From contig JAFEBL010000002.1 of the NCBI GenBank assembly GCA_018242665.1, positions 124,001 through 188,000 of the forward strand: DNA of 64,000 bases, written 5' to 3'. Positions 7,395 through 38,700 of the stretch are shown one piece after another; position 1 is the stretch's first letter, and each line of letters starts with the position of its first letter. Under the pieces are notes generated by a model, which was not told the origin of the DNA, searched no databases, and saw nothing but the letters and a program-made list of their open reading frames with translations. The DNA is from Nitrospira sp. GTDB taxonomy: Bacteria > Nitrospirota > Nitrospiria > Nitrospirales > Nitrospiraceae. Made by a program: the position numbers and the translations under genes.

Positions 7395-7432
7395 GGTACG
7401 AACCGGTGGCGGGTGTTGCGCCGACCGTTGCG

Positions 7433-7996: not shown

Positions 7997-8049
7997 GTGA
8001 ATGACCCATCGCTCGTCGGTCGCAACTCGTATCTCGACAGGTCGTTGTT

Positions 8050-8085: not shown

Positions 8086-8086
8086 C

Positions 8087-9583: not shown

Positions 9584-9615
9584 ATGGAACCGAATGCTGC
9601 GACGCGACCGCCGGG

Positions 9616-10314: not shown

Positions 10315-10550
10315 CTCGCTCCTTCGTTGCGGCCATCTGAATGGACGGCGCGTGACCCTCCGAGTGGAGGAACGCCGCCGAATCCGCTCCCGATTCGTCG
10401 CTTGCGAAAGTGGCTAGAATACGGTCCAAGGCAGCGAAAGTCAAAGTGAAATGGGTCTCTGAGGCGTTTGACCCCCTCCCCGCCCCTATGCTACGGTTCG
10501 CTCAAGATTGCAGTTCCATCCATTCTATCCAATCACCGGCACGAAAGACC

Positions 10551-11503
10551 ATGGCATCCAGCCCGCAACCGGCCGCCGCGCGCACCCTGTCCATCGAAGG
10601 CATCTCCCTGCACCTGGCGCAGCCGATGACGATGGCCCAGGAATGGATCGGCAACCGGGAGATTCTCAAGCAGTTGCTGGCCTGCTGGCTCGTGATTGAT
10701 GAGCGCGATCTGCCGCTCTCGCCGCGCATTACCGGTCAACCGGGCATCGGCAAAACCACTCTGGCCATGGCAGGCGCGCAGGAGCGCAAGCAAGACCTCT
10801 ACGTGTTTCAATGCACGGCGGACACCCGTCCCGAAGACCTGTTGATCACGCCAGTGCTGGCGGAATCCGGCACGATCAGTTATCACGCCTCGCCGCTGGT
10901 GACTGCGGTGCTGACCGGAAGCATCTGCGTCCTCGACGAGGGCAACCGGATGAATGAAAAAAGCTGGGCCTCTCTCGCTCCGCTGCTGGATCACCGGCGT
11001 TGCGTGGAATCGATCATCGCGGGCCTCCTCATCAAGGCACATCCCGACTTCCGCTGTTGTGTCACGATGAATGAAGACGCCTCGACCTATGAAGTGCCCG
11101 ACTATATCCTGTCGCGGCTTCAACCGACGCTCGGCATGGGTTTTCCCACGCGCGAAGATGAACTGGCCATTCTACGTTATCATCTGCCCTTCGCACCGGC
11201 CGACATGCTGGCGCTCACGGTCGAGTTCCTGCAGGAGGCGCATCAACTCAGCCTCGAATATTCCGTACGCGACGGCATCCATCTCCTGCAATATGCCCTG
11301 AAGCGCTGCGCCCAGGACCCGGCCCACCCTTTAGCAGCCGATGCCGCCTGGCGGGAATCGCTCATCAAGGTCTTGGGCGAAGAAGCGCTTGATCTGCCGA
11401 CTCAGTCGCGTAAACGCAAGCGTGCGCTGGGCGATCAGGCCTTGCCTCGCGGACTCGGTGATTTCTTTTTCGAAAGTGACGACCCCCTACACCCCGGCCG
11501 ATA

Positions 11504-11504
<1 letters not shown>
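10551..11504 (+). CDS. MoxR-type AAA+ ATPase
   Basis: About 317 aa from the ATG at 10551 ([10 protein letters not shown]..); the frame is open further upstream to 10410 but that part lacks domain character and overlaps a plausible promoter region. Walker A is '[15 protein letters not shown]'; Walker B is '[16 protein letters not shown]' with the MoxR-style E.NR.....W; the sensor 1 region is '[13 protein letters not shown]', followed by '[32 protein letters not shown]'. These fit the MoxR/RavA branch that remodels partner proteins, often metal-site or envelope proteins with VWA domains. Its stop overlaps the start of the next gene by one base, so the 632-aa protein is the obvious partner; no VWA protein is encoded in the window. 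Confidence 0.82.
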
Positions 11505-16710
<5,206 letters not shown>

Positions 16711-18478: not shown

Positions 18479-21400
18479 TCACTGGGAAGGAGATCTGTAG
18501 GGAGAGCTCCCCCATGCCGTGTGCCGAATCGCGTCATAGAGTTGCTCGGTGGGCACTTCCTTCGTGATTAATGCACGGGCACCGGCGTTGATCATTGCCT
18601 CCTGATTTTCCCGACCTGCGTTCACCGACAGCCCGATGATATGACAATCGCTGTTCTGTTCGGCGATGCGCGCGGTGGCCTGGATCCCATCCATGATCGG
18701 CATGTTGATATCCATCAGGATGACCTCGGGCTTAAGGGAGGCCGCCAGTTGTACCGCCTCCCGCCCATTGCTCGCCTCCCCGACCAGTTCGAAGTCCGGG
18801 CAATTCTCCAGCATCATCCGCAAACCTTCGCGCACCATGGGATGATCGTCCACGAGCAGGATACGAATCGGGCCGGACAGGGCCGGCGAGCCGGAGGATC
18901 TGATCTGTTTTCGAAACCGCCGGACCGGATCCTGTGGGACCTGCGTGGGCTGCAGGGGAGCACCGGCAGGCGACCGCACGGAGATGGGCAGCGTCAACAT
19001 CGCCGTCGTGCCTTCGCCGGGAGCCGAACGGATCTCGAACGTTCCATCAAGCGCCTTCATGCGTTCACGAATGCTGAAGAGGCCGAATTTCAACGGCTCC
19101 GGCCGGGAGGATCCCGCGACGGCTACAGGGTCAAAACCCATGCCCTTGTCTTGCACGGTGATAACCAGGTCCTCCTGTCCCATCCTCATGGTGACCCAGG
19201 CCGACTGCGTCCCGGCATGTTTCGCCGCGTTCAGCAATAATTCGCGGACGGATTGGAAGAGCAGGACGCCTTGTTCTTCGGCCAGCATGATGTGTTGGTG
19301 TGCCGGCACCTCCACCGTCACCATCATGCCGCGCTTCTGCATATAGTCGCCCAGCCAGGACAGTCCCGCCGCTAGGCCGTGCTCGCGCAAGACCGGCGGG
19401 CTCAATTCGGCGACGAGGCTGCGCGTATAGCTCAAGGCTTCGATGAAAATAGTCTCTGTCTCCTTCATACACTGGGCGACCTGCGGCAGGTCCTCGGCGC
19501 GCCGCATGCCTTGATTCAGTTTCATCTTTCCCAGCACCAACAATTGTTGCAAGTGGTCGTGGAGTTCGGCAGCCAGACGTTGGCGCTCACGCTGTTCGGC
19601 CAAGTTGAGTTCGGTGGCCAATGCGCGCAAGCGATCTTGCGAGAGGAGCAAATCTTCCGTCCGCGCCTGGACCCGATCTTCCAATTGCATGGTCAGCACG
19701 CGCAGTCGATCTTCGCTGTGGCGCAGCGCATCGTGCGCCAGTTGCCGTTCGATGTGCCGAACGGCTTGCTGCACATACAACTCCAAGTGCCGCAGCTCGC
19801 GCTCGTTAGGACGGTGAGCAGCGGACCAATACATCGTGAGGAGTCCCAAGACGGTATCGTCCATGGCCAGCAGCGGGTGGCACAGGACACCGCCGGCCCC
19901 GTATGGCGCCAGACATTGCGCCAACGCGGCGCAGCCGGGGTCGGCGGAAATGTCCTCCACGATCACCTGCTCATGGGTGCGTACTACCTCGGCGCTGATG
20001 AGGCCATGGTCGTCCGGCGCAATCGAAACGGGATCGGCTGGGTTTGCGTCAAATCCGACGGAAGCCACGACCCGAACCGTTCCGCTGTCAGGATCGCACA
20101 ATTGCGCACTGCAGCGATCGCTCTTGACCAACTCCCGGGTCGAGCGCAACACCTCCTCGATCAGCGAGACCAGCCGTTCATCATTCTGCGCCAACCGAAG
20201 GCCCATGCCATGCAGCTTCCGCATGCCATCGATTTCTTGATCAAGCGCCTGGTCGACGCGGTGCCGTTCCAACACGATGCCGGCCAAGTTCGCGCCGAAC
20301 TCCGCCAAGCGCCGCTCCCAGGTCGTCGGGGTGCGTGACTCCGTCAGGCAAAGAAAAAAAGAGGCAATCGGCTGCCCCGCCTCGTCAAACACTGGTTCCG
20401 AGTGGCAGGCCTTGATGTCATGGGCGAGACAGAGATCGCGCCAGCCGGCAGGCCAGTGGGCCTGGCGCGCCACGTCGGGACACGTGATCGGCTTGTCCGT
20501 GTAGGTTCCAATCGGCAGGCCGGCGATCGGCGAGCCGCGGAGCGCCGTCGTAAACGATAGCGGCAGGTGCATAGAGTAACAGTCCCCGATCGCGGTCCCG
20601 TCGGCATCAGCCACCAGCAACGCCGCCCGCGCGGTCGGATGGAGACGGGTCACGGATTCGGTCAATGCCGACACACAGTCGTAGAGCGGCTGTTTGATCG
20701 CGACTCGCTCGAGCAAGTCTTTGTGTTCGGTCAACAGGAGATTGGCCTGCATCTCCTCAGTGATATCACGTGCGGCACCAAACCATTCCACGATGTCCTC
20801 GTTCGAGCCCAGCATGGGCACGGCGCGGGACACGGTCCAACCCAACGTGCCGTCGACGCGAATGACACGATGGATCAAGGAAAACATCGTTTTGGTTCGA
20901 ATCGCCTGGTTGATTGCCGCCGTCACCTGTGGTTGATCATCTGGATGGAGATAGGCCTCGAGCCAATCGCGGCGTGGACGCTCAGTGTTGGCGAGAAACT
21001 GCTTGCCGTCCAAATACCGCATCTCGCTCCAGTCCGCATTCATGCAATAAACGACATCCGAGGTCGCCGTGATAAATGCTCGGAACCGCGCCTCGTTCTG
21101 CCTGACCGCGTCCGCCGACTCTTTTCGGATCTTCGCCAGATCGAGATGCGCGGCGACTCTCGCGAGCAATTCTCTGGCGCTGAACGGTTTAATTAAATAG
21201 TCATCAGCGCCTCGGTCCAATCCTCCCACGCAGGCTTCTTCACCGGCCCTGGCTGACAGCAGAATCACTGGCGTCATGCGCAAGGCCGCATCGGCGCGCA
21301 CGGCTTCCAAGAGAGCAAATCCGTCCAAGCGAGGCATCATGACATCGCTCAAAATGAGATCCGGCCGCATGCGCCCGGCAACAGTCAATGCCACCTCCCC

Positions 21401-23449
21401 ATCCGCCGCCGTCTCCACGAGGTAGCGCTCACTGAGCAAGCCGGCGACATATCGGCGCATGTCGGCATTGTCGTCCACCACCAGCACGCGCGGCCGTGTT
21501 GGAGACTCATGTGATGCGGCACGTTCGCGGGGGGCATGAGCTCCGTCTGCGCCTGCATCCGCCGTGTCGGTAGCCGGCGCCGTCTCACCAACGTGTTCCG
21601 GCATCACCAGGTCCTGCTCTTGCGCTGGCAACCATCGGAGGGCTTCCTCAACGATGTGCCTGGCGGCGGACTGGTCCGGACGGGGGCCGGTTTTTCGGAC
21701 GAGACGATGTACCGGCAAGTGAGCAGTCCCAAGCGGGATGGTCACGATGAACCGGCTGCCTCGACCGAGTTCACTTTCCGCCCGAATGTCGCCGCCATGG
21801 AGCTTCACCAACTCCTTCACCAGCGCGAGCCCGATCCCGCTGCCTTCATGCGTGCGGCTTCGCATCTCCTCCACCCGGTAAAACCGCTCGAACAGCCGCG
21901 GGATCGCGTCCTTCGGAATGCCCACCCCGGTGTCGCGCACCGTCAACTCCGCCGTGTGCGCTTGGTGGCGCACCGTCACGGTGATGGCGCCTTCGAAGGT
22001 AAATTTGAAGGCGTTGGACAGGAGATTCAGGACAATTTTCTCCCACATGTCGCGATCCATGTAGACGGGCTCGGGAAGCGGAGGACAATCGACCGCCAGC
22101 TGAAGGCCCGCACTCTCGGTGGCCGATCGAAAGGAACTGGCTAAGTCCGCAGTCAAGGCGCTCAGGTCCGTCGCCTCATACCGCGCCTGCACCCGTCCCG
22201 CTTCGATCCGCGAAAAGTCCAACAGACTGTTGACCAATCGCAACAGCCGCGCGCCGTTTCGATTGATGACTTCCAATTGATTTGTGACTTGTGGCGCCAG
22301 GGTGCCGTGGCGGTGCGCGAGGAGATCATCGACCGGGCCCAGCATGAGGGTCAACGGAGTGCGGAATTCATGGCTGACATTGGAGAAAAACGCCGTCTTG
22401 GCACGGTCCAATTCAGCCAATGCTTCGGCGCGCTGCCGTTCCTGCTCATAACTGCGCGCATTCGAGAGACCGGCTGAGACCTGCCCGGCGAGCAGCATGA
22501 GGAATCCCCGGTAGGCCTGGTCGAACGGCCGATACGGATTGAGCCCCGCGATCAACCAACCAGCCTGTTGATCCTGGCCCTGTTGCATCAAGGGAATCAC
22601 GACGGCTTGCCGCGGAGCTTTATTCCAGGGACCAGCCGGAACGGAGGTGAAACGCGACGCGAGGTCCTCGACGATCACCGGCTCCCCGTTGGTCATTTGC
22701 TGCCCAATCGGCCAGGCCCCATCCACATGGAGCGGAAGACGGTCTGGTGCAGTCGGCTCCCCCGCCATCACCCCGCTGGAGCACGCGAGATCGGCCTGCG
22801 CCTGCTTGGGATCCAGCAGATAGGTGACCGTGAAGGGCAGATCCTGGCCGGCCCTGATCAGGCGATGTTCGATGGCCGCAAATAGTTCTCGCTCACTATT
22901 GATGCCGGTCAAGTCAGCCGCCAGCTCGCGCAGCAACGTCAGCCGCCGTTCACCGATGACGCGTTCCGTATCTTCGGTGACCACACACAACATGCCGCCG
23001 ATCGCGCCGTCATCATCCGGAAGCGGACTATAGGAAAACGTGTGATACGTCTCCTCCGCCATTCCGCTTCGTTCCAGAAACAGCGGAAGCGACTGATCCC
23101 ATGTGGCGCAACCGGTCCGCACGACCGACTCGGCGCGAGGCCCGATGTCGTCCCAAATCTCCGCCCACACCCTTCGTGCGGAGGCGCCCAAGACCCAATC
23201 CGCCTTGATTCCCACCGTCGGAAGATACGCGTCATTGCAGAAAAAGTAGAACTCTGATCCCCACCCCATCCACATGGCATAGCGAGACGTGAGCATAATC
23301 CGAACGGCGAGTTTGAGGCTGTGGGGCCATTGGTGCGGGAGTCCTAATGGATGCGCCGACCATTCATAGGTCCCGATACGGGTGGCCATATCTCCCCCGC
23401 TGACGAGAAAGTCCAATGGAGCCTTGTCCTGCCGACGGTCTACGTCCAT
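18479..23449 (-). CDS. 1656-aa hybrid sensor with two histidine-kinase transmitters and two receivers
   Basis: One polypeptide, read in order: PAS-like N-terminal module (~20-165, 'WPHSLKLAVRIMLTSRYAMWMGWGSEFYFFCNDAYLPTVG'), GAF (~185-335), HisKA with phospho-His360 (SNVSHEFRTPL), HATPase (~465-575; N479, DTGVG, GSGIGLAL), receiver 1 (~653-770; phospho-Asp702), PAS (~785-900), GAF-like (~915-1065), GAF (~1090-1240), coiled coil, a second transmitter of the HisKA_3/NarX type (His1297 in ELHDHLQQ) with its ATPase (~1395-1490; N1407), and receiver 2 (~1527-1645; phospho-Asp1580). No membrane segment, so cytoplasmic sensing. No DNA-binding domain, so output must go through partners. Start ATG at 23449, RBS GGAGGAAG. 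The adjacent divergent gene at 23971 encodes a sigma-54 activator, a likely partner. Confidence 0.9.
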   Translation of the reverse strand: MDVDRRQDKAPLDFLVSGGDMATRIGTYEWSAHPLGLPHQWPHSLKLAVRIMLTSRYAMWMGWGSEFYFFCNDAYLPTVGIKADWVLGASARRVWAEIWDDIGPRAESVVRTGCATWDQSLPLFLERSGMAEETYHTFSYSPLPDDDGAIGGMLCVVTEDTERVIGERRLTLLRELAADLTGINSERELFAAIEHRLIRAGQDLPFTVTYLLDPKQAQADLACSSGVMAGEPTAPDRLPLHVDGAWPIGQQMTNGEPVIVEDLASRFTSVPAGPWNKAPRQAVVIPLMQQGQDQQAGWLIAGLNPYRPFDQAYRGFLMLLAGQVSAGLSNARSYEQERQRAEALAELDRAKTAFFSNVSHEFRTPLTLMLGPVDDLLAHRHGTLAPQVTNQLEVINRNGARLLRLVNSLLDFSRIEAGRVQARYEATDLSALTADLASSFRSATESAGLQLAVDCPPLPEPVYMDRDMWEKIVLNLLSNAFKFTFEGAITVTVRHQAHTAELTVRDTGVGIPKDAIPRLFERFYRVEEMRSRTHEGSGIGLALVKELVKLHGGDIRAESELGRGSRFIVTIPLGTAHLPVHRLVRKTGPRPDQSAARHIVEEALRWLPAQEQDLVMPEHVGETAPATDTADAGADGAHAPRERAASHESPTRPRVLVVDDNADMRRYVAGLLSERYLVETAADGEVALTVAGRMRPDLILSDVMMPRLDGFALLEAVRADAALRMTPVILLSARAGEEACVGGLDRGADDYLIKPFSARELLARVAAHLDLAKIRKESADAVRQNEARFRAFITATSDVVYCMNADWSEMRYLDGKQFLANTERPRRDWLEAYLHPDDQPQVTAAINQAIRTKTMFSLIHRVIRVDGTLGWTVSRAVPMLGSNEDIVEWFGAARDITEEMQANLLLTEHKDLLERVAIKQPLYDCVSALTESVTRLHPTARAALLVADADGTAIGDCYSMHLPLSFTTALRGSPIAGLPIGTYTDKPITCPDVARQAHWPAGWRDLCLAHDIKACHSEPVFDEAGQPIASFFLCLTESRTPTTWERRLAEFGANLAGIVLERHRVDQALDQEIDGMRKLHGMGLRLAQNDERLVSLIEEVLRSTRELVKSDRCSAQLCDPDSGTVRVVASVGFDANPADPVSIAPDDHGLISAEVVRTHEQVIVEDISADPGCAALAQCLAPYGAGGVLCHPLLAMDDTVLGLLTMYWSAAHRPNERELRHLELYVQQAVRHIERQLAHDALRHSEDRLRVLTMQLEDRVQARTEDLLLSQDRLRALATELNLAEQRERQRLAAELHDHLQQLLVLGKMKLNQGMRRAEDLPQVAQCMKETETIFIEALSYTRSLVAELSPPVLREHGLAAGLSWLGDYMQKRGMMVTVEVPAHQHIMLAEEQGVLLFQSVRELLLNAAKHAGTQSAWVTMRMGQEDLVITVQDKGMGFDPVAVAGSSRPEPLKFGLFSIRERMKALDGTFEIRSAPGEGTTAMLTLPISVRSPAGAPLQPTQVPQDPVRRFRKQIRSSGSPALSGPIRILLVDDHPMVREGLRMMLENCPDFELVGEASNGREAVQLAASLKPEVILMDINMPIMDGIQATARIAEQNSDCHIIGLSVNAGRENQEAMINAGARALITKEVPTEQLYDAIRHTAWGSSPYRSPSQ

Positions 23450-23970: not shown

Positions 23971-25344
23971 ATGAATTTGGAGCATTCCCACATCCTCATC
24001 GTTGACGACAATGTGGAAACGTTGTTCCTTCTGCAGGAACTCTTGTCCAAAGAAGGGTATGACATTGCCACTGCTCCCCACGCCCAGGCGGCGCTGGAGC
24101 AGGTGCATCAGCGTCAGCCGGATCTCATTGTGAGCGATATCAGCATGCCCGACATGGACGGGCTGGCATTGTTGGCGGAGCTCCGTGCACAGCAACAAGA
24201 TATGCCCGTCATCCTCATGACCGCTTTCGGGTCGCTGAAGACCGCCGTCGATGGCCTCAAGGCAGGCGCGTTCGATTACCTCAGCAAACCGTTCATCATC
24301 GACGAAGTGCGCCTCGTGACACGCCGCGCGCTGGAACACACGCGTCTCCTCCGACGGACCGAGGCTGGCAACGAACAGGCCCTGAACGGCTATCGATTCG
24401 ACGATCTTGTGGGCAGCAGTCCCGCAATGGTGAACGTCTACAAGTCCATTGCGCGCGTGGCGCAGCGAGACAGCACCGTATTGCTGCAGGGTGAAAGCGG
24501 GACCGGCAAGGAATTGATTGCCCGGGCCATCCACGCCAACAGCGCGAGAAGCAACGGGCCCTTCGTCACCGTGGACGGCGGCGCACTTGCCGAAACGTTG
24601 TTGGAATCCGAATTATTCGGCCACGAACGCGGAGCCTTCACCGGCGCCGTGGCCTCAAAAAAGGGCCTGCTCGAACGAGCCCATCAGGGTACCTGTTTCC
24701 TCGACGAGGTCGCCGATCTGTCGCCCGCGCTTCAGGCCAAACTGCTGCGCATGTTACAGAATCACGAAATCCGTCGAGTCGGCAGCACAAGCTCCATGAC
24801 AATCGATTCCCGCATCATCGCCGCATCCAAACGGCGCCTGGACTCGCTCGTCAAGGCCGGGACCTTCCGCGAAGATCTCTACTACCGCATGAACGTCGTG
24901 TCCATCGACATTCCTCCGTTGCGTGAACGGACGGAAGATATTCCATTGCTCGCGCAATTTTTTGTCCAGAAATACGGCGGCTCCAAAGACAGCCCCGTCC
25001 TCGCGGTGTCCCCGGATGCGATGCACCTGCTAGAGCGCTATTGGTGGCCGGGCAATGTGCGCGAGCTGGAGCATGCCATCGAACGCGCCGTCGCCCTCAC
25101 TCCCCACACGGTCATCTGCCCGGAAGACTTACCCGACGGCGTGAGGAACGCCACGGTACAAACCGTCGCACAGGCGCAGGGCTGGGTCACGCTCGCCAAC
25201 CTGGAACGCGAACATATCATCCGGGTGCTGGAGTCGCATGACCGCGACCTGGGACGCGCGTCGCTGATTCTCGGCATCCACCGGAAAACCCTTCTGCGAA
25301 AGCTCCGACTCTACGGAGTCGCGGCTCAATTCGGCGTAACCTGA
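23971..25344 (+). CDS. NtrC-family sigma-54-dependent response regulator
   Basis: I start at the ATG at 23971 (MNLEHSHILIVDD..) with AAGGAG 10 bases upstream; the frame is open further back without domain content. 457 aa: receiver (5-120) with phospho-Asp56 in DLIVSDISMPD and Lys106; AAA+ domain (~143-375) with Walker A GESGTGKE (174-181), the sigma-54-contacting GAFTGA (221-226), Walker B TCFLDEV and the arginine fingers in 'REDLYYRMNVVSIDIPPLRER'; and a Fis-type helix-turn-helix (~410-450, 'RDLGRASLILGIHRKTLLRKLRLYG'). It should bind enhancers and open sigma-54 promoters after phosphorylation. Divergent to the 1656-aa hybrid kinase, its likely partner. No -24/-12 promoter could be found near it. 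Confidence 0.93.
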   Translation: MNLEHSHILIVDDNVETLFLLQELLSKEGYDIATAPHAQAALEQVHQRQPDLIVSDISMPDMDGLALLAELRAQQQDMPVILMTAFGSLKTAVDGLKAGAFDYLSKPFIIDEVRLVTRRALEHTRLLRRTEAGNEQALNGYRFDDLVGSSPAMVNVYKSIARVAQRDSTVLLQGESGTGKELIARAIHANSARSNGPFVTVDGGALAETLLESELFGHERGAFTGAVASKKGLLERAHQGTCFLDEVADLSPALQAKLLRMLQNHEIRRVGSTSSMTIDSRIIAASKRRLDSLVKAGTFREDLYYRMNVVSIDIPPLRERTEDIPLLAQFFVQKYGGSKDSPVLAVSPDAMHLLERYWWPGNVRELEHAIERAVALTPHTVICPEDLPDGVRNATVQTVAQAQGWVTLANLEREHIIRVLESHDRDLGRASLILGIHRKTLLRKLRLYGVAAQFGVT

Positions 25345-25348
25345 CACC

Positions 25349-27067
25349 TCATTCCCTAGCCGGCATGGTGTAATGTGCTTCGATGGCGGCCCGCATCAGC
25401 TTGCGACCTTCGTCTGCGGACAATTGGGATTGCCGCTCGATGTGTCGGGCCGCTTCGGCGAGCGCATCGTCCTTGATCGATTCCTCAAACCAGCGCGAAT
25501 AATCGCCGCGGCGCAGGTGGTGCGCCCAGGTGGCCTCATCCACGCCGTCGGCGAGCTGCGCGAATAGAATGAGATTCTGAGCCCGTAAATTGAGCGCGCC
25601 GGTGGGACCTCTGAAATAGAAACTGCGATCCGCCGGCAGCGCTCCCTCGGCATATTTGCGACGATGCCGACGCCGCTCCGCCTCACCGGGCGTGATGCGC
25701 ATCTTGTAGGGCCCCCCTCCGCCGAGCCGTTCCCATACCAACGCTTCGCCGGGGAGTAGTTTGGTCTCTTCCACCGTCGGCGCCGCCTCGCCGATCGCCT
25801 CACAGAATCCGATGATCGTCCTGGCAGGCGCTTCTCCCAGCGCGATGATCATATCGGCTGTGCCGACCACCGACCGTTCGATCTGATCCGGATGCACCGT
25901 CACATAGATCATCTCAGAGAGGTTCTGCGCCTGCACGAGGGTGGTGGCATCCCTATCGACCGGCATCTGGTGATGGGTTTCATCGACCAGCAGCCAATGG
26001 GGCCGGCCAGTCTTCGTCCGCAACTCTTGTAGGCGTGGAAGCAATTCGAGAAAAAAGCTCGGCCGGTCTTGGAGCGGGAGGCCGACGAGATTGACCACGA
26101 CAGGGTTGCCTGGCTTTGCCAGTGCGGTCAGAATTTCATTGACGCTAGGTCCCCGCTCCGCGCTGCCGAAGACGATCGCGTCGGCAAAGCCTTCGTAATC
26201 GCCTTCCGGATCAATGATGCAGAATTGATAACCGCCTCCGTTCAGCCGTTCAAGAAACCCAGTCGCGAGTGTGGATTTCCCGCTTCCAGACGTACCGGCG
26301 ATGAGTAGATTTCGACCGAACGGCGCGATCGACACCTCCTGTCCGTCTTCGCGCAGGCCCAACGGAATGCGGTGGCGCGGGGGCGAGAAAGCGGCCGGGT
26401 CGAGATCATGATCGACGAGATCAGCGATCAATTCTTCGACACCGGTTCCATGATCGCCGGTGGTGACCAGATCCGCTGCCTCCTTCAGCATCGGCACCGC
26501 GTTGGCGACCGTCACGGCATAGTGCGGCAATCGGAGCAGCGCGTGGTCGTTCTCCCCGTCCCCCACCGCCACGATGTTGTGGGGGGAAAGCTCCAATTCG
26601 TCGAGGACCGCAGCCAGACCTGAGGCCTTATCAACATTGGTCGGCAGGACCATGACCGCGCCTTTGTTGAACACGATCCGCAATTCGAGCCCCAGATCGC
26701 GAATGACATCCAGCACGACCGTTTCATAGGGAGTTCTGGTTGCGACCACCACCTGCCCGACCGACAGGTGACGCACTCCGCGCCGCTGCAGTTCCTCGAT
26801 GAACCTGGGCGGAGGCGAGGCGCCGAGCAGATGCATATCTTTCGTCGCCGGCCGGTAGAGCACCGCGCCGTTTTCTGCGACGACTCGCTCGCAGAGGTCG
26901 ATCTCAGGAAAGACGTCGAGCAATTCCGGGAGAACCCGGCCGGTGACGAGCACCAGCTTTCGTCCGGAGGATATCAATCGCTTCAACGCGGCAATCGTGG
27001 TCTCTCCCACGCGGCCGTCGGTCGCCAAGGTGCCGTCATAGTCGGCTGCCAATGCGAGAAAACGCAC
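25349..27067 (-). CDS. Fusion of HAD phosphatase, HerA/VirB4-like P-loop ATPase and a C-terminal helical domain
   Basis: 572 aa from a GTG with GGAGGC upstream. Part 1 (~1-215): a Cof/phosphoglycolate-phosphatase type HAD hydrolase with the nucleophile pair in DYDGT (Asp9, Asp11), VTGR (41-44), Lys in 'LPTNVDKASGLAAVLDEL' and GDGEND (169-174). Part 2 (~240-455): P-loop ATPase with Walker A GTSGSGKST (258-266), 'FCIIDPEGDYEGF' as in HerA/VirB4-like proteins, and Walker B 'HWLLVDETHHQMP' (~358-368). Part 3 (~485-560): 'FYFRGPTGALNLRAQNLILFAQLADGVDEATWAHHLRRGDYSRWF', probably DUF5752. Every catalytic motif is intact. Substrate and purpose are unknown; ATP-driven regulation of the phosphatase is a guess. 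It is last in an apparent operon after an Slp-type lipoprotein (33-base gap). Confidence 0.85.
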   Translation of the reverse strand: MRFLALAADYDGTLATDGRVGETTIAALKRLISSGRKLVLVTGRVLPELLDVFPEIDLCERVVAENGAVLYRPATKDMHLLGASPPPRFIEELQRRGVRHLSVGQVVVATRTPYETVVLDVIRDLGLELRIVFNKGAVMVLPTNVDKASGLAAVLDELELSPHNIVAVGDGENDHALLRLPHYAVTVANAVPMLKEAADLVTTGDHGTGVEELIADLVDHDLDPAAFSPPRHRIPLGLREDGQEVSIAPFGRNLLIAGTSGSGKSTLATGFLERLNGGGYQFCIIDPEGDYEGFADAIVFGSAERGPSVNEILTALAKPGNPVVVNLVGLPLQDRPSFFLELLPRLQELRTKTGRPHWLLVDETHHQMPVDRDATTLVQAQNLSEMIYVTVHPDQIERSVVGTADMIIALGEAPARTIIGFCEAIGEAAPTVEETKLLPGEALVWERLGGGGPYKMRITPGEAERRRHRRKYAEGALPADRSFYFRGPTGALNLRAQNLILFAQLADGVDEATWAHHLRRGDYSRWFEESIKDDALAEAARHIERQSQLSADEGRKLMRAAIEAHYTMPARE

Positions 27068-27100
27068 GAACTGCCTGCCTCCGTCACACGTAGGGTCCGG

Positions 27101-27634
27101 CTACTCTGCCGCCACCCGCTGTCCTTCCCAAAACACAAAGGGTCTGCTGCCTTTGAACGGGGAACCGGGCGGATAGGGCGTGGCCTTCAGATAGCGATCC
27201 CACAACGTCAGGTCCCGGATACGCAGGGTTGGCGGCGCACCCCCCTGCATCGGCCGCCATACTTCACCCAGCACGGTGACCAACGCGCCCGGCTCCAGGC
27301 GTTCCGGTTGGGTGATGTGGTGTGCCGCATCGATCCCGATGAAGCCACCTTTGGCTGCAGCGGGGTCAGGCAGCGGGCGAAGAGTGGGATCCAGCGGCAG
27401 GTACGTGAACTCCACATGAATCGCATCTCCCACTCGGCTCACGCTCCGCACCGTTCCTCCCCAGGCCACGATCTGGCCCTGATGGAGGTCTGGGCGATCG
27501 CGAACTTGCTCAATGGTCAACGCGTGATTGACCCTGCCCTGCAGTTCCTCCGGCACAACCTGATAAGAGGCACAACCGTCGAGCAGCAGGGAACAGAGCA
27601 CAATACTCAGCGCGAGTCCGACAAGGCGATTCAC
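27101..27634 (-). CDS. Slp-family outer-membrane lipoprotein
   Basis: 177 aa from a GTG. Signal with lipobox LLDGC near residue 21. The mature part matches the Slp pattern: 'YQVVPEELQGRVNHALTIEQVRDRPDLHQGQIVAWGGTVRSVSR', 'IHVEFTYLPLDPTLRPLPDPAAAKGGFIGID', 'LEPGALVTVLGEVWRPMQG'. Slp proteins are outer-membrane lipoproteins induced by starvation or acid in enterobacteria; their mechanism is poorly known. It starts 20 bases after the upstream lipoprotein gene and ends 33 bases before the HAD-ATPase gene. Confidence 0.82.
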   Translation of the reverse strand: MNRLVGLALSIVLCSLLLDGCASYQVVPEELQGRVNHALTIEQVRDRPDLHQGQIVAWGGTVRSVSRVGDAIHVEFTYLPLDPTLRPLPDPAAAKGGFIGIDAAHHITQPERLEPGALVTVLGEVWRPMQGGAPPTLRIRDLTLWDRYLKATPYPPGSPFKGSRPFVFWEGQRVAAE

Positions 27635-27654
27635 GGCTCTCGCCCCCCTGCCAT

Positions 27655-28509
27655 TTATCGTGATTGCGGAGGCACGGCGACATCGATGACCTTGTCGTCG
27701 TTATCGACGAGCAAAATGACCGAATCTCCCTTCGTCAATTGAGAGACACGCTCGCGAATCACTTGATGCACTTCGTAGGGGCGCTCTCCCTGCTCGGTCT
27801 TGATCGTAATCCGTTGGCTTTCGAGCGGCTCGACGATCGTGCCGTCCACCTGGCGATTGGCGCCCTTGATCGGAGAGCGCAGCCCCGTAGCCGTTTCCGC
27901 CGCATGTTTGCTGGCGAACGTGGCGTCGGACACCTTATTCGTTTCATCCAACAGAAAGACGGCCGGCGCGCCGACGTTGATCGCCGCGAGCTTGCTGCGG
28001 GCCTGCGAACGGACCAGGAAAGAATATTCTTTCCCCTGATCGTCGCGGATGACGACCTTATCCTGCCCAATGGGCAGATTCTGGGCGATCTGGCCATAGA
28101 TGATGCGATGGTGTCCGCCGGTATGATTGAGCGGATGGTAATCGACCAGCAGGTTTTCCGCGTTCAAGACCAGGATGAGATCGTCACCGGGTTTAATGTC
28201 GGAGGCAAAATATTTTTCCTTGGCCGGTTTCAACGGAATGAACCGGGGCTGGACTTCGCCGATATCGACCTTAATCTGCCCCGACGTCACCGCCTCGACT
28301 CGACCCAAGACCGGCCGCTCCCCTTCGATGAACTCTCCCGCCGTCCCGCTCGGTTGCTGGGCAGGCATGGCGCTTCGTTGCTCCGACGCCGCGGTCTGCG
28401 TATGAGTGGACATCGTCCGCGACCGGTCGGTTTCATGTGAACAGGCCGCGACGAGCAGCGCCATGACATAACCGGAGACAATCAGTGGCAATGTGATGCT
28501 GCGCTTCAT
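27655..28509 (-). CDS. Hypothetical lipoprotein with repeated small beta modules
   Basis: 284 aa from the ATG at 28509 (MKRSITLPLIVSG..), with lipobox LLVAAC near residue 22. A Thr/Ser/Gln/Ala-rich linker is followed by three similar stretches of beta-strand type: 'VLGRVEAVTSGQIKVDIGEVQPRFIPL' (~65-90), 'KVVIRDDQGKEYSFLVRSQARSKLAAINVGAPAVFLLDETNKVSDA' (~145-190) and 'VDGTIVEPLESQRITIKTEQGERPYEVHQVIRERVSQLTKGDSVILLVDNDDKVIDVAV' (~220-280). Each looks like an OB- or SH3-like unit with 'G..V.LLvDe..kv.d' ends. I do not recognise the family. First gene of the three-gene run with Slp and the HAD-ATPase. Confidence 0.65.
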   Translation of the reverse strand: MKRSITLPLIVSGYVMALLVAACSHETDRSRTMSTHTQTAASEQRSAMPAQQPSGTAGEFIEGERPVLGRVEAVTSGQIKVDIGEVQPRFIPLKPAKEKYFASDIKPGDDLILVLNAENLLVDYHPLNHTGGHHRIIYGQIAQNLPIGQDKVVIRDDQGKEYSFLVRSQARSKLAAINVGAPAVFLLDETNKVSDATFASKHAAETATGLRSPIKGANRQVDGTIVEPLESQRITIKTEQGERPYEVHQVIRERVSQLTKGDSVILLVDNDDKVIDVAVPPQSR

Positions 28510-28840
28510 GGCATGACTCCTTTGCTGAGTGGATGAGAACGGCTCGATCATTCGGGAGCCCTATCGTGTGCTTCCGACATTCCCTATCATCACCAGGACG
28601 ACCGCACAGTGCGCCATCCGGCACCGAATGGACGGCTCCGATCGTCGACGTGCCCGCCCACGACCGGCCATGAAGCACCTAGCAAGATGCAGACCTGAAG
28701 GCATGCCGGGCACACAACGCGCCATGGGGCAAGAAGAGTGAATTCACGCGGGGATTCCTCCTGTCACAAGGAGGCACATATTCACGCCAAGGAATGACTG
28801 AGGGACACGTTGTCCTGCGGGTGGACAAGGAGCGTGGAGG

Positions 28841-28887
28841 CGTGAAACGTCCAACGCGAGAAAGGCGTGAAACGTGAGGACGTGAAC
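28841..28887. repeat. CGTGAAAC repeat tract
   Basis: CGTGAAAC at 28841-28848 and 28866-28873, and CGTGAAC at 28881-28887. It is the complement of the tract at 8050-8085. It lies in the ~1 kb between 28510 and 29536, which otherwise shows only a short inverted repeat (CCTCC-N8-GGAGG near 28757-28774) and no convincing gene. A possible 30-residue membrane segment encoded on the minus strand from 29146 is not enough to call one. Confidence 0.5.
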
Positions 28888-29536
28888 CGAGTGATCCCTC
28901 GTCTTGCCTGTGAACGTTCAAGTCTCCACGCCCACGCGAACAGATAGTACTGAATGGGAATCCGAAGTCGCGCGTTGCCCGTCGGGCGGATGCCGGATTC
29001 ATAGGCTTCATATGTGCGGACTCTTTCCGCCGAGCAGGCTGGCGATCATGCCGTTCGCCCAGCAGCGAGGGCAGTATCAGCATGCCGTCGACAGTCAGCG
29101 CTGTCAGCAGAGCATACATCGCGAGCGCCACAAACGAGTCGTTCATCTTGCTCCCAGATCGAAGACCAGAGTGACCAGGCCCATCGAACGAGTGGACACC
29201 CAACCGGCGAGACGGCCTGCTCCATTCGGCGCAAACCATCCCTCCTCCATTCTTAGGATTGAATGACGCGCTGAGCCCTCGCCGACTCGGTCGCCGGCCG
29301 CGTTGCACCGCACCGGTGCAAATTGCGCACCCTCGCCACCTGTTGGATAGCAATGATTTGGGAACCACCGGGACTTCAATAGGCCGATGCACGGACAAAA
29401 TGTCTGGCGCACCGGACAACCCTTCCAGCTGGAGACACAACAAAACGCCGCCAGCGTCATGTAGACCGCGATGGGGAGGGCATATGGATTGCTCTTATTT
29501 GCAGGACATAGACCGTCACCATCAGGAGGGTTCGCC

Positions 29537-32735: not shown

Positions 32736-35700
32736 TTAGACGCCGGTTGATTGAGGCCGAGTGAGGTCACACACATCCCGATCACGCTCGATGATAGTCG
32801 CCGCCATCCACGCGAGCAGGTCGAGCAGTTTCAATTCGTCGTCAGTCGGTTGATGCGGCCGATCGAACTGTGTGCTCAGCAGGCCGACCGGGTCGCCCTT
32901 GTGGTTGATCAACGGAGTGGATTGCATGGCCCGGATCTGTTCGGCCAACGCAATGTCGCATCCCTTGCGGTCAGCCGGCGACGCCAACTCGTCAATGTCG
33001 TCAACCATGATCCGGACCCGCTGCTCAGGCAGACGATCACAAGCCAGCTTCGCACCTTGATACCGGAGATATTCGAGATAGGGATTGTCCTCCGCATACC
33101 CGCGCCATGCGACCAAGTCGAGCCGTACCCCGTCGTCACTGACGACCTGGAGGCAGCCTCGAGGTGTTCCCGTAAGATCGCACGCGGCCGAGAGTATTTC
33201 ATCGAATGCGGTGTGCAGGTCCCGTTCCGTCGCGATTTTTGTCTGCACATCGTGAAGGCGTCGTAGGCCACGTTGGTCGGGCGCACATTGCGCGTCGCGT
33301 GCCTGAAGGGCGGATTCCGCCTGCCGGCGGGCGATGACCGCGTGTTGCAGATCCCGGTGCAGCTCCTCAATGCGATCACGCGCCTGGACGGCATCTTCAA
33401 GAATATTCAACGCGGCCTGCCGCCCGTCGCGAATGACTGTGTTGGCCCGGTCCAATTCCGCGCGCCGCGCGCCGGCAAGTTCAAGATGTGCCTTGACACG
33501 AGCAAACAATTCGCGGGCAGCGAATGGCTTCACGAGATAGTCGTCCGCACCGGCGTCGAGACCTTGGACCTTCGACTCCTCCCCCGCGCGTGCGGACAGG
33601 AGAATGATCGGGATGTGTCGCGTGGACGGTTCAGCCCGCAATGCGCGGAGCAGCTCCAAGCCGTCCATGCCGGGCATCATGATATCGGCGAGCACGAGGT
33701 CGGGCGGATGTGCCAGCGCGGCTCGCAGCGCAGAGGTCCCGTCCACCACCGCCTGTATGCTGTACTGGCCGGAGAGTAAACGCGTCACGTAGTCCCGCAT
33801 ATCCGCATTGTCATCGGCCAGAAGGATAGATCCTCCATAAATGGCCGGCCTCGGATGAGCCGAGTCCGTCGGCTTGCTGTCCGGTTCGCTCGATGAACCG
33901 GGGCTGGCCTCCGCTGGCAGCCAGCGCAACGCTTCTTCGACAAAAGGCCCGGCACCCAATCCGGTCGAGGCCAACAGGCGCGGTGCGGCGATGCGATCCG
34001 GCGGAAGATGGGCCTTGCCGCGCGGGATACGGACGGTAAAGATGGTTCCGACTCCCACCCTGCTGGCCACGCCGATGGTGCCCCCATGCAGTTTGACCAG
34101 CTCCTGCACAAGCGCCAGGCCGATGCCCGATCCTTCATGCGTACGAGATCGCGCGCCGCGAATACGATGAAAGCGTTCGAAGATCCGGGGAAGATTGCTC
34201 TCCGAGATGCCTGTTCCACTGTCGTTGACCACGAGTTCAGCATGGGACTCCCCCAGCGAGGTCCGGACGGCAATGTCGCCGTCGAAGGTAAACTTCAACG
34301 CGTTCGAGAGAAGGTTCAGGACAACCTTCTCCCACATCTCACGGTCCAGCCAGACCGGCTCGGCGAGCCTAGGGCACTCGATGGACAACGTCATCCCCGC
34401 GCGCTCGACGGCCGAGCGAAAGTTGCTTGCGAGCTCCGCCGTGAAGCCGGCAAAGTCCACCGGTTCATACGAGGCGTCTATGCGGCCCGACTCGATCCGG
34501 GAAAAATCCAGCAGCGTATTCACCAGTTTGAGCAACCTCAGCCCGTTGCGGTGCGCGACCGTCAATTCCTCCCGGACGTTCGCGGGCACGCGGCTTTCGG
34601 AACTCAAGGCCTCTTCCAACGGTCCAAGCATGAGCGTCAACGGTGTCCTGAACTCATGACTGACGTTTGAAAAAAAGACGGTCTTGGCCCGATCCAATTC
34701 TTCCAGCGCTTCTGCCCGCTGGCGTTCCTCAGCGTATGCGCTCGCGTTGGCGACTGCGGTGCCGGCCTGCCTGGCAAGCAGGTCTAGAAACCCGCGATAG
34801 CTGTCGTCCAACTCGAGGCGAGGGCTGAGACCGGCGATAAACCATCCAGCCAACTGTTGTTGACCGGCCTTGATCATCGGCAAGACCAACGCACGCTGCG
34901 CTGGTTCAGGCCAGGGCCCCCCCGGAAGCAACCCGACACGAGGCGGCAGCCGATCGACCAACAGCGGCTGCTTGCTGTTCATCACCTGATGGAGCGGCCA
35001 GGGGCTGTCCGACGAGCCGAGCTCGATGACTTGCGGAGCGGCGGCATGGCCGGCCGGCAGGCCGACCTGTCCCGCCAGTCGCGCGCTCGTCCCATCTGGC
35101 TCCAGCAGATACCAGAGAGCGCAGGGCACGTCATGCGGGTTCCTGATGAGTTCGCCAGCCGCGATCGCACAGGCCTCGTCAGCCGACTTGGCCTGATACG
35201 ATCGGTCGGCCAGCGCCCGGAGCGTCGCCAACCGCCGCCGGCCCAAGACCCGCGACGTTTCTTCGGTGCAGGCGCAAAAGACGCCACCGACCTGTCCTCG
35301 ATCATCCAAAATCGGCCCGTAGGAAAAGGTCATGTAGACCTCTTCCTGATATCCGTTGCGCGTCATGACGATGAGGAGTTCTTCATTCCAATGCGAGCGG
35401 CCTTCCCGCATTACCGCATCGGCCTGAGGCCCCACCAAGGGCCAGGCCTCGGACCAGACCACCGGGGCCGGCTGCCCCAAGGCACCGGGATGGCGCTTCC
35501 CCAGCACCGGCAGATAGGCATCATTGTAGAAATGAATCAGCTCATCCCCCCACCAAATGAGCAGCGGATACTGGCATCCCAGCATAATCGAGACGGCAGT
35601 CTTGAGCGATTGCGGCCACCGGTCCATCGGCCCGAGCGGGGTCGTTGACCAATCGAACGCGCGCGTGCGAGCCCCCATTTCGCCGCCGCCGATCAGCCAG

Positions 35701-35783
35701 TCGCGGTCCTTGGTACCTGCCGCCGATTTCACGCCGGACTTCTTCCCTATCTTCCGGGAACCCTTCGGCCGAACATCAGACAT
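32736..35783 (-). CDS. Hybrid histidine kinase (PAS-GAF-HisKA-HATPase-REC-GAF)
   Basis: 1015 aa. N-terminal Lys-rich tail, PAS-like module (~30-180, 'WPQSLKTAVSIMLGCQYPLLIWWGDELIHFYNDAYLPVLG'), GAF (~190-345), HisKA with phospho-His376 in SNVSHEFRTPLTL, HATPase (~480-590; N494, DSGTGI, GSGIGLALV), receiver (~652-770; phospho-Asp700 in DLVLADIMMPGMDG, Lys752), coiled coil (~775-830) and a C-terminal GAF (~845-1000). Soluble. It is a clear paralogue of the first half of the 1656-aa sensor at 18479-23449, but the second transmitter is replaced by the GAF domain. It begins 12 bases after the CheB-CheR gene, so the two are co-expressed. No adjacent DNA-binding regulator on this strand. Confidence 0.9.
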   Translation of the reverse strand: MSDVRPKGSRKIGKKSGVKSAAGTKDRDWLIGGGEMGARTRAFDWSTTPLGPMDRWPQSLKTAVSIMLGCQYPLLIWWGDELIHFYNDAYLPVLGKRHPGALGQPAPVVWSEAWPLVGPQADAVMREGRSHWNEELLIVMTRNGYQEEVYMTFSYGPILDDRGQVGGVFCACTEETSRVLGRRRLATLRALADRSYQAKSADEACAIAAGELIRNPHDVPCALWYLLEPDGTSARLAGQVGLPAGHAAAPQVIELGSSDSPWPLHQVMNSKQPLLVDRLPPRVGLLPGGPWPEPAQRALVLPMIKAGQQQLAGWFIAGLSPRLELDDSYRGFLDLLARQAGTAVANASAYAEERQRAEALEELDRAKTVFFSNVSHEFRTPLTLMLGPLEEALSSESRVPANVREELTVAHRNGLRLLKLVNTLLDFSRIESGRIDASYEPVDFAGFTAELASNFRSAVERAGMTLSIECPRLAEPVWLDREMWEKVVLNLLSNALKFTFDGDIAVRTSLGESHAELVVNDSGTGISESNLPRIFERFHRIRGARSRTHEGSGIGLALVQELVKLHGGTIGVASRVGVGTIFTVRIPRGKAHLPPDRIAAPRLLASTGLGAGPFVEEALRWLPAEASPGSSSEPDSKPTDSAHPRPAIYGGSILLADDNADMRDYVTRLLSGQYSIQAVVDGTSALRAALAHPPDLVLADIMMPGMDGLELLRALRAEPSTRHIPIILLSARAGEESKVQGLDAGADDYLVKPFAARELFARVKAHLELAGARRAELDRANTVIRDGRQAALNILEDAVQARDRIEELHRDLQHAVIARRQAESALQARDAQCAPDQRGLRRLHDVQTKIATERDLHTAFDEILSAACDLTGTPRGCLQVVSDDGVRLDLVAWRGYAEDNPYLEYLRYQGAKLACDRLPEQRVRIMVDDIDELASPADRKGCDIALAEQIRAMQSTPLINHKGDPVGLLSTQFDRPHQPTDDELKLLDLLAWMAATIIERDRDVCDLTRPQSTGV

Positions 35784-35795
35784 CGTCCCACCCCG

Positions 35796-38700
35796 TCATA
35801 CGTCGCTACCATCCGGCATGGACGGCTCCGGCTCGCCGGCGGGCTTGTACGGTGGAGGATCGCCGCGCAGCCCATAGAGCGTATTGATTTCCTGCTTCAG
35901 CTCCTGCATGCGCAGCTCGCGTCCCACCATGACATGGTTGAACCGCTCCAGTTCGCGGTTGCGCACATTGAGCTCGGCCTCCGCCCGTTTACGCTCCGTG
36001 ATATCGCTTCCCGTGCCGAACCATTCAACGATGTCACCGTCCCGATTGACCAGCGGTATCGCACGCGAAGAGATCCAGCCGATGGTACCGTCCAACCGGC
36101 GAATCCGATGCTCCAATTCAAACGTGCGTCTGGATCGAATCGCCGCGCCGATGGCATCGCAGACCGCCGCCTGATCGTCGTCGGGAATATGAGCGTCCAT
36201 CCAGTCGCTGCGCGGCTGTTCGGTACTGGCGACAAAGTCTTTTCCCATCACGCTCAGCATCTGACTCCAATCCGCATTCATGATAAACACCATTTCGGAG
36301 GTGGCCGCCACGAACGCCCGCAGACGCGCCTCCGATTTCCGCATGGCGGCCTCGGCCCGGGCGCGTTCGATGCGCTGAAACAGGCGTTGCGAGAGTTCGC
36401 GTAGCAGGTCGATTTCGTCCACCTGCCAGTCGCGCGGCTGGACCGCCGTGACGGAGAAAGACCCGCTCCATCGACCAAGACGAGGAAATGGGATCACCAC
36501 AAACGAGCCGATGTTCATGCGTGCAACATGGTCCGCATCCCTGCGGCCGTGGCGGCCGGTGTCCCGCACGACCAGCGCGTCCTCGTCGCGATCGGCAAGG
36601 GCAACCTCCACGCTCGCAGAATCGCCGAGTCCGCACATACCCAGCAGGATCGGGATGTCGGCATTCGACCAGCCGTAGCTGATGGTCACGTCGTGCTTGT
36701 CTTCGTCCGTACCCTTGAACAGACAACCGGAAATTCCCATACAGGCAGCGAGACGCTTGCCGACCGTGTGTAGAACCTCGTCCGGAGCGATGAGCCGGTT
36801 GAAATCTTCGGCAACCTCGGCAAGCAAGGCACTGTGGGCTTCACGGCGTTTGCGCTCGCCGATATCTCTGAACAACACGGCGACTCGTTGTTGCTCCGGC
36901 AAGCCGGCCCGGAACGCAAAGACTTCATACCAGCGTGGCAATGGCAACGCGGCGGCTTGATGCTCAAAACGCGCGGGCGTGCCCGTCAACGCAATCTTGC
37001 CGTACATATCGAACCAGAATTGTTCGTGGTTCGGTGCAAGTTCGCGGATGGTTTTTCCGACGGCATCCGTCAGACCCGTTTGGTTGATGAAGGCGGGATT
37101 GGCCTCCAGAAACCGATAGTCGGCGGCGCGCCCATCTTCGTCGAACAGCACCTCGATGATGCAAAACCCGACGTCGATCGACTCGAACAGGGTGCGGTAT
37201 TTGGCTTCCGACGCCCGCAGGTCTTCTTCCGCCTGTTTGCGCCGGGTAATCTCCACGAACGTCAGCACCACACCGGATACCTGCAGATCCATCGTGCGAT
37301 AGGGTATGAACCGCGCGAGAAACCATCGCTGCTGCTGATCGGCCACTTCGCGCTCCACTTCCACGGCTTCGGCGAGCACGGTCCGCACATCCTGTTCAAG
37401 CCGGTCGTATCGGAGGTTGTGCCGCAGGTCAGCCAACGGCCGGCCCAGATCAGTGGGAATGAGTCTGAACAAACGGGTGGCGGCCGGCGTATACCGCATG
37501 ATCTTGAGGTCACGGTCGAGGAAAATAATGCCCAGGTCTGTGGCATCGATGAAGTTCTTGAGATCGCTATTGACGCGCGTGACATCGTCAATACTCAGGC
37601 TGAGCTGTTGGTTGAGGACCGTCAGTTCCTCGTTGATGCACTGCAGCTCCTGACGGTTGATATCCAGCTCCTCAGTCGCCGACCGCAGCTCCTGGTTGAT
37701 CACCGACAATTCCTGATGGCTCGCGCGAAGGTCTGCCGGACTCAGCTCGCCGACAGGTTGGCGGCGCGGCTCTCCGCCATCCGCCGACCAAGCCGGCGAA
37801 ATCTCCCTCGCCGATGCCTTGAGCAGGGCGGACGTCCCGGCTCCCAACGAGCTGAGTTCCTCGGACCGTGCAAGCAATTCGTTGGCTCCCATGACCCGAG
37901 GAACTGCCGAGCCGCCAGGCGCACGGCGATAGAGTCGGTGCGCGGCATCCAGCGGGACGAAGAGCGGCTTATCGGCTTTCTCCGCCGGACCAAGGAACAA
38001 CAGACCTCCCGGACGCAGGGAAAAACGCAGCGTCTTCAGCACGTGCCGTTGCGCCTCCGCCGTCAGGTAAATCAACAGATTCCGGCAGGAGACCACATCC
38101 ATGCGGGCGAATGGGGCATCTTTGAGCAAGTCATGCACGGCAAACAACACCGGTTCGCGCAACTCCCGTCGCGCGCGGTCGCCGCCTTTTTCCCTGGCAA
38201 AAAACCGTTGCACGCGACCGGGAGACAGATGATCGCGCATGCGTTCAGGATACAGACCGCTCCGAGCCACCATGATGGCCTCTGCATCCAGATCCGTGCC
38301 GAAGATCTGTAGCGCGGGCGGCGCGTCATATCGACCCGCACATTCGATCAGCAACATGGCGATCGAATAGGCCTCTTCGCCGGTCGCGCAGCCCGGCACC
38401 CAGACCCGTATGGCATCATCGGGTCCTTTGCCGCGAAACAGTTCCGGCAGCAGCGCGGCAAACGCGTCGAAATGCTCGGGGTCGCGGAAGAAGTGCGTGA
38501 CGGAGATGAGAAAATCACGCGCCAGCGCCAGGGTTTCTTCCTGGCTGCCCCGCAGCAGCGAGAGGTAGCCGGAAGGGTGGTCCGCCCCGCTCAGTTGCAT
38601 ACGATGCTCGAGTCGGCGTGTGAGCGTCCCGCGCCGATAGCGAGCATAGTCTTGTCCGGTTCGTTCGCGAATGATGCTCAGCGATGCGTCCAACAACGAA

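Follow-up and report, generated by a model that had tools for sequence, protein, structure and literature searches.

The closest described relatives of the protein considered here each resemble one part of it: phosphatases of the HAD-IIB type, among them PH1421 of Pyrococcus horikoshii (PDB 1wr8); HerA/VirB4-type ATPases (4d2i, 9x1m; PF01935); and the DUF5752 family (PF19027) together with OrfY of Thermoproteus tenax (4cso). We analyzed a stretch of 64,000 nt from Nitrospira sp. (GCA_018242665.1, contig JAFEBL010000002.1, positions 124,001 to 188,000; hereafter the window). One gene on its minus strand (25349-27067) encodes a HAD-IIB / HerA-like ATPase / DUF5752(OrfY)-like fusion protein of 572 amino acids, as judged from Pfam matches, conserved residues and an AlphaFold2 model. 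PH1421 is like the fusion in fold and HAD motifs but covers only residues 1-224, to which the fusion adds the ATPase and DUF5752-like domains. HerA/VirB4-type ATPases share the fold, Walker A, the DPEGD motif and Walker B with the fusion, which differs from them in lacking a HAS barrel, in having a variable, mostly TVHP-like motif after Walker B and in being joined to a phosphatase. One repeat of DUF5752 or OrfY aligns with the C-terminal domain of the fusion, whereas stand-alone DUF5752 proteins and OrfY are built of two repeats and lack the HAD and ATPase parts.

Two published precedents come from trehalose metabolism. In the msc-gt-tpsp trehalose operon of T. tenax, the glycosyltransferase forms a complex with the synthase/phosphatase (PMC3634074). 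The operon groups a GT4 enzyme, a HAD phosphatase for trehalose-6-phosphate (T6P) and a channel, and, unlike the fusion, it has no HerA-like domain. In S. acidocaldarius, a GT4-type synthase supplies T6P, on which a non-canonical HAD phosphatase acts, as it does on several sugar phosphates (PMC7688234). A literature search, with most subscription papers beyond its reach, found no description of a HAD-HerA-DUF5752 protein and no publications on DUF5752, on T. tenax OrfY or on mad8.

We conclude that the HAD-HerA-DUF5752 proteins form a real and conserved family that has no name. The fusion is probably a stress-related carbohydrate phosphatase and not part of an outer-membrane lipoprotein machine. 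The specific proposal, a cytosolic phosphatase that acts on sugar phosphates in stress metabolism (trehalose, glycogen or compatible solutes), is regulated by ATP and is docked through DUF5752, is given a probability of about 0.4. In this proposal, the HAD-IIB part would dephosphorylate a small sugar phosphate in carbohydrate metabolism under stress. By sensing ATP or by oligomerizing, the ATPase domain may act as a switch or a scaffold for the phosphatase, and docking of the fusion to alpha-glucan/trehalose enzymes would fall to the DUF5752 domain. The three domains, their conserved motifs, the wide spread of the family and the genes that lie beside it were observed; enzyme activity, the substrate and the roles of the ATPase and DUF5752 domains are inferred. 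The proposal draws on the HAD-IIB type of the phosphatase, the DUF5752 domain, the neighborhoods of DUF5752 with TreS/TreT and of the fusion with TreZ, and the published precedents.

Domain structure of the fusion protein

The open reading frame (ORF) of the fusion is intact, and a GGAGG can be read from the sequence 10 nt upstream of its GTG start. An earlier note on this DNA had described a HAD phosphatase fused to a HerA-like ATPase. The fusion is borne out by the open frame and by Pfam matches over cut-off for both parts (PF08282 and PF01935); the two-part description overlooked a third, DUF5752/OrfY-like domain that profile and structure matches bring out. An AlphaFold2 model of the whole protein, built with 58 sequences, has a mean predicted local distance difference test score (pLDDT) of 91.7 and a predicted template modeling score of 0.81. 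By inspection, neither a signal peptide nor a membrane segment is evident.

The capped, HAD-IIB type phosphatase domain spans residues 1-224 (26396-27067, minus strand). It matches Pfam Hydrolase_3 (PF08282) with 97.7 bits against a cut-off of 20.9 (E 1.2e-27) and the NCBIfam HAD-IIB model TIGR01484 with 91.8 bits against 41.8, and the other 24 of the best 25 of 42 NCBIfam matches all lie under their own cut-offs. The HAD-IIB motifs DxD, T/SGR, Lys and GDxxND are all present. D9, D11, G43, R44, K147, D170, N173 and D174 are invariant among 58 homologues, and T42 is kept in at least 90% of them. The nucleophiles of motif I (D9-Y-D11; 27035-27043, minus strand) are thus retained, as the earlier note had held. 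The DxDGT pattern is missed in 4 of 72 relatives, in which the DxD precedes E or D. In the PDB, residues 1-224 match the fold of PH1421 (1wr8; Z 27.4, root-mean-square deviation (rmsd) 2.5, 222 residues aligned), and the fold matches include sugar phosphatases, sucrose-phosphatase, MpgP and T6P phosphatases. The two highest NCBIfam scores belong to phosphoglycolate phosphatases (103.1 bits against a cut-off of 198, and 102.7 against 122.75). The second of these, the archaeal model TIGR01487, was rejected as an assignment because it lies under its cut-off.

Residues 229-466 form a HerA-like P-loop ATPase domain (25670-26383, minus strand) that matches HerA/DUF87 (PF01935) with 28.5 bits against a cut-off of 23.2. 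Walker A (GTSGSGKS, residues 258-265; 26273-26296, minus strand), DPEGD (286-290) and Walker B (D362-E363; 25979-25984, minus strand) are all intact. G258, G263, K264, D286 and G289 are invariant among the 58 homologues, and S260, P287, E288, D290, D362 and E363 are kept in at least 90% of them. The catalytic residues of the ATPase part are therefore present and conserved. Among the 72 relatives, Walker patterns are missed in 18 (A) and 11 (B), mostly through letter variants or offsets, and the DPEGD pattern is missed in two. PDB fold matches of residues 230-466 are HerA 9x1m (Z 20.7, rmsd 2.8, 225 residues aligned) and 4d2i (Z 20.4). A profile search of the PDB for HerA relatives gave mainly generic P-loop matches, with HerA chains at E of about 5e-4 (best 60 of 270 at E<=1).

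Binding and hydrolysis of ATP by this domain are plausible from its conserved residues. DNA translocation is doubtful. An N-terminal HAS barrel is a feature of HerA translocases, and a TQ-R/N-P motif following the HerA Walker B has an arginine-finger role. The model leaves no room for a HAS barrel, as the HAD domain (1-224) runs straight into the ATPase (229-466). Among 16 sequences, the HerA-type TQ-x-P after Walker B is not kept; the motif is variable and mostly TVHP-like, whereas another HerA-like protein of the same genome has TQNP at this place. As a result, the HerA-like fold and Walker motifs of what had been called an ATP-driven, motor-type domain stand, while its role as a motor is uncertain. 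The PADLOC model mad8 matches residues 233-316 (window 26120-26371; E 6.9e-11), and mad8 may share the compact HerA-like ATPase of the fusion.

The C-terminal domain is, on profile evidence, a single DUF5752/OrfY-like helical repeat at about residues 478-566 (25370-25636, minus strand). An hhalign comparison of 12 fusion C-termini with eight DUF5752 proteins gave a probability of 94.3 (E 9.6e-8). DUF5752 is itself a tandem duplication (probability 99.2, half against half) of which the fusion holds one copy. When the two halves are compared separately, the second repeat aligns better (95.6, E 1.3e-8) than the first (76.9), and 20 column-shuffled controls all gave 0.34 or less. DUF5752 matches OrfY (4cso) with E 6.3e-36. 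The profile of the fusion C-terminus, searched against the PDB, matches 4cso with a whole-sequence E of 2.8e-5, the only match below 0.5 (next, 0.59). The full-length paralogue at locus L014, which is 31-33% identical to the fusion, reaches 27.8 bits with the DUF5752 Pfam model (cut-off 23). The domain modeled alone has a pLDDT of 78.8. A second aligner, run against 44 chains, placed 4cso first (Z 6.9, rmsd 2.4, 70 residues), with the next at Z 4.0. Structural support for the DUF5752 identity is moderate, and the assignment is based on sequence.

Distribution of the family

A contig scan gave at least 440 relatives among at least 595 pattern matches, and the best 80 loci were taken further. 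They are 41-58% identical to the fusion in the best segment, save one Nitrospira locus at 68%. By our own assignment from genus names in record titles, they include Cyanobacteria, Planctomycetes, Alpha-, Beta- and Deltaproteobacteria, Acidobacteria, Actinobacteria, Bacteroidetes, Verrucomicrobia, Chloroflexi and Fibrobacteres. The frame is open for at least 520 amino acids in 72 loci, stops earlier in five and leaves the contig in three. Twelve plasmid records match the fusion, 11 of them across 80% or more of the query, and these copies are annotated as HAD hydrolases or carry no annotation. A phage origin was considered and rejected: ten phage records match, none covers 80% of the query, and the matches listed concern the HAD part only.

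A fusion-type match was found in 16 of 29 genomes of the genus, and a full-length fusion in ten. The fusion is split over two frames in G001 (loci L007/L013) and G003 (L008/L012), and it is cut by contig ends in G012 and G002. These four and the ten full-length genomes are treated below as the 14 fusion genomes, and the remaining 15 as the others. G033 and G038 have only the paralogue, although G038 (L021) also has a short fusion remnant with a stop. The fusion gene may be dispensable in Nitrospira with split or remnant copies.

Genes of trehalose and glycogen metabolism

At the loci examined, DUF5752 lies beside trehalose genes. DUF5752 matches occur in 49 of 148 Nitrospirota genomes (47 over cut-off, with paralogue-type matches counted in). 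Twenty-seven loci were taken as the best-scoring returned, rather than as a random sample, and include the window genome's own. At every one of the 27, a TreS-like gene (18 loci) or a TreT-like gene (nine loci) lies within 1.5 kb; OtsB is found in two, TreY in three and an MscS-like query match in five. Family confirmation covers TreS and, by Pfam domain, TreT on L120, and OtsB on L148; the TreT NCBIfam model stays under cut-off on L120, L136 and L148. L120 is another contig of the window genome, on which (5486-14922) GlgE and maltokinase come after DUF5752, TreS and TreT (TreS 909 bits against 678; maltokinase 463 against 375; TreT by PF21269 and GlgE by PF11896).

In L145, L146 and L148, DUF5752 lies inside a frame of 458-464 amino acids that has an MscS-like start and adjoins a TreT-like gene. 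In L146 and L148, OtsB lies on the other side of this frame, an arrangement that resembles the T. tenax msc-gt-tpsp operon and is to be compared with its grouping of enzyme, phosphatase and channel. The MscS match of the L148 frame is weak (27.4 bits against a cut-off of 321).

The fusion itself often has carbohydrate genes as neighbors in Nitrospira. Neighbor genes were counted by tblastn, independently of ORF calls, at 11 Nitrospira loci and at the 80 loci, and neighbor families in Nitrospira were confirmed on L122 only. Eight of the 11 loci have both TreZ and an archaeal-type debranching enzyme; Ku is present at nine, an FAD oxidoreductase at nine and a KatE-like catalase at seven. On L122, NCBIfam scores are over cut-off for TreZ (636.6 against 538.8), debranching enzyme (395.9 against 364.15) and Ku (309.5 against 150), and under it for catalase (916.6 against 1102). 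TreZ lies 1.4-5.7 kb from the fusion in nine of the 14 fusion genomes. TreZ of the fusion-locus type (at least 69% identity) occurs in 12 of the 14 compared with five of the 15 others (Fisher 0.008, ancestry ignored). Stand-alone DUF5752 occurs in 9/14 and 3/15 (Fisher 0.025, ancestry ignored), a count that omits G032 with its domain fragment only and becomes 9/14 and 4/15 with it.

Beyond the genus, an example is the Aminobacter plasmid pAA02, on which the fusion is divergent from a set of GT4, debranching enzyme and T6P synthase genes. GT4 of the pAA02 family is also found at L092, L099, L105 and L106. Among ten neighbors scanned, nine of them about 750 amino acids in size, one is a debranching enzyme (L036), seven belong to other families and two to none. 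Carbohydrate-stress genes are better supported partners of the fusion than the lipoproteins discussed below.

A number of observations weigh against a role in carbohydrate metabolism. Outside Nitrospira, trehalose-type genes are near few fusion loci: debranching enzyme at three of the 80, GT4 at three, TreS-like genes at two, TreZ-like at two, OtsA at one and TreT-like at one. SDR dehydrogenase is near 16 of the 80, LigD-like genes near five and Ku near two. At L092, one of the GT4 loci, the fusion frame stops at 478 amino acids. The window has no trehalose genes by the queries used, and the TreZ of its genome is on another contig. A canonical T6P phosphatase (OtsB) was rejected, as the trehalose-phosphatase model is absent from the 25 Pfam families matched at E<=1; TIGR00685 is not among the best 25 of 42 NCBIfam matches. 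In a sample of 40 fusion genomes, of which many are metagenome-assembled and for which the background was not matched, OtsA is found in 24 and TreZ in 26 (25 over cut-off). An OtsA (GT20) match is absent in 16 and both enzymes are absent in five, so that OtsA-derived T6P is not a substrate shared by the whole family. The lack of OtsA is softened by the GT4-type T6P route of S. acidocaldarius.

The domains also provide points on this side. The 106-residue C-terminal piece reaches only 13.2 bits with the DUF5752 Pfam model (cut-off 23), and Foldseek with the lone C-terminal model gives 4cso at E 2.6 and probability 0.51. The PDB labels OrfY a transcription factor, hence DUF5752 may regulate instead of dock. 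In 3 of 72 relatives (L044, L057 and L070), Walker B is truly altered, so that not every member needs the ATPase. Finally, a NiFe-hydrogenase cluster of Nitrospira carries, between its hypF and hypD genes, a HAD-HerA-DUF5752 paralogue that is 31-33% identical to the fusion (L132:9180-10910, L133:7864-9594, and also L014, L019 and L020; hypF and hypD family-confirmed on L132). No trehalose role explains that placement.

Alternative functions

Two alternatives, a generic phosphatase and a DNA-repair factor, are considered less probable. In the first, the fusion is an ATP-regulated phosphatase of general metabolite repair or of the phosphoglycolate type, its DUF5752 repeat serves only for oligomerization, and its presence in stress islands merely reflects that these collect accessory genes. 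The sub-cut-off lead of the phosphoglycolate phosphatase models, the diversity of fusion neighbors outside Nitrospira and the paralogue in the hydrogenase operon are all in keeping with it. It would, on the other hand, turn the association of DUF5752 with trehalose genes and of the Nitrospira fusion with TreZ and the debranching enzyme into coincidence. We regard this as possible, at a likelihood clearly short of even.

The second alternative is an accessory of non-homologous end joining (NHEJ) that processes DNA ends and works with Ku and LigD, the HerA-like domain engaging DNA and the HAD domain taking phosphates off its ends. Ku is present in all 14 fusion Nitrospira genomes compared with three of the 15 others (Fisher 1e-5, ancestry ignored), and in ten of the 14 it lies 0.5-3.7 kb from the fusion. 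The link with Ku in Nitrospira is thus at least as tight as that with TreZ, a further point against a carbohydrate role. G038, with its fusion remnant, is one of the three Ku-bearing other genomes. Ku or LigD-like genes are near six of the 80 loci (L053, L057, L074, L090, L095 and L098), and Ku occurs in 27 of the 40 sampled fusion genomes. In 14 unmatched control genomes Ku was found in one, TreZ in three and OtsA in five. HerA proper is a DNA translocase by the title of 4d2i.

These associations are offset by several features. A Ku match is absent in 13 of the 40 fusion genomes, including Nostoc, Phormidium and Paludisphaera. PNKP-type 3'-phosphatases are uncapped, unlike the capped IIB-type HAD of the fusion, and the HAS barrel is missing. 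Within the window, 22 kb separate the fusion from the Ku gene (49046-49867), which is 72% identical to the Ku near the G040 fusion. As a group, Ku, catalase and TreZ resemble a general stress island, and shared ancestry means that the counts are not independent. TreZ and Ku also lie side by side in the fusion-less G004 and G033, so this pair exists independently of the fusion. A DNA-end-processing role is therefore considered unlikely.

A role in phage defence, suggested by the likeness of the ATPase to mad8 and to two HerA models of defence proteins (E 0.002-0.006), is very improbable, because the mad8 match spans only the P-loop/DPEGD region (model positions 3-70 of 314) and because no defence genes were conspicuous among the neighbors viewed, without a systematic test.

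The lipoprotein genes and the surrounding region

The fusion is the last gene of a closely spaced run of three on the minus strand, after two predicted lipoprotein genes. The first (27655-28509) starts with an ATG at 28509, encodes 284 amino acids (298 if an upstream ATG is used) and matches no family of Pfam or NCBIfam above the cut-offs. The second (27101-27634) belongs to the Slp family (PF03843, 53.6 bits against 22.5), with NCBIfam TIGR00752 at 23.2 bits under its cut-off of 88.45. By inspection, the signal peptides of both end in a lipobox-like sequence. The gaps of 20 and 33 nt in this run and its Slp-type and unfamiliar lipoproteins were as previously described. Co-transcription of the three genes is plausible. 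A scan of 25200-29000 found no sigma-70-like promoter (0.9 expected from shuffles) and two terminator-like sites (2.7 expected), one within the 27655-28509 gene and one within slp.

The tight spacing could be taken to mean that the fusion acts with both outer-membrane lipoproteins as an envelope module, and the recurrence of Slp beside the fusion is in line with this. Slp adjoins an open fusion gene in two of the 14 fusion genomes, the window and G040 (L018), where two Slp genes precede it and the nearer ends 19 nt before it; Slp also lies beside the remnant in G038, within about 3.4 kb of the fusion in G012 and G003 and, as weaker matches, about 8-11 kb off in G014, G037 and G039. A Slp match is, however, absent from the flanks of eight of the 11 Nitrospira loci and of 79 of the 80, the remaining one being L097, a Nitrospira locus on the same contig as in G012. 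The other lipoprotein has relatives in all 29 genomes of the genus, often several per genome, and none near the 80 loci. It lies 45-74 kb from the fusion in G009, G011, G035, G037, G039 and G040; in other genomes the two are on different contigs, where adjacency is not always excluded.

The module was therefore rejected as a conserved unit, and an envelope function, drawn from the link with outer-membrane lipoproteins in the earlier note, is not supported by these counts or by the fusion sequence, in which no export or membrane signal is evident by inspection. That the lipoproteins are never linked to the fusion elsewhere is mostly true, G040 being an exception for Slp. An envelope role is highly improbable, and the two lipoprotein genes probably just happen to lie beside the fusion. 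The region is bordered by large hybrid sensor kinases and a CheB-CheR-PAS protein (window 18479-23449 and 32736-39434).

Significance

A broader and more tentative proposal, which we consider rather doubtful, is that a HerA-family ATPase was recruited off DNA. Its ring or ATP switch would gate a sugar phosphatase docked, by way of the OrfY/DUF5752 domain, on trehalose/glycogen enzymes in many phyla, and the paralogue would have been adopted by the NiFe-hydrogenase maturation operon. If true, the recruitment of a HerA-family protein would give stress carbohydrate metabolism a control point that senses energy, and would show a HerA-type ATPase at work in metabolism instead of on DNA. The analysis marks out an uncharacterized three-domain family of many phyla, in which DUF5752/OrfY, a domain of unknown function, gains a catalytic partner.

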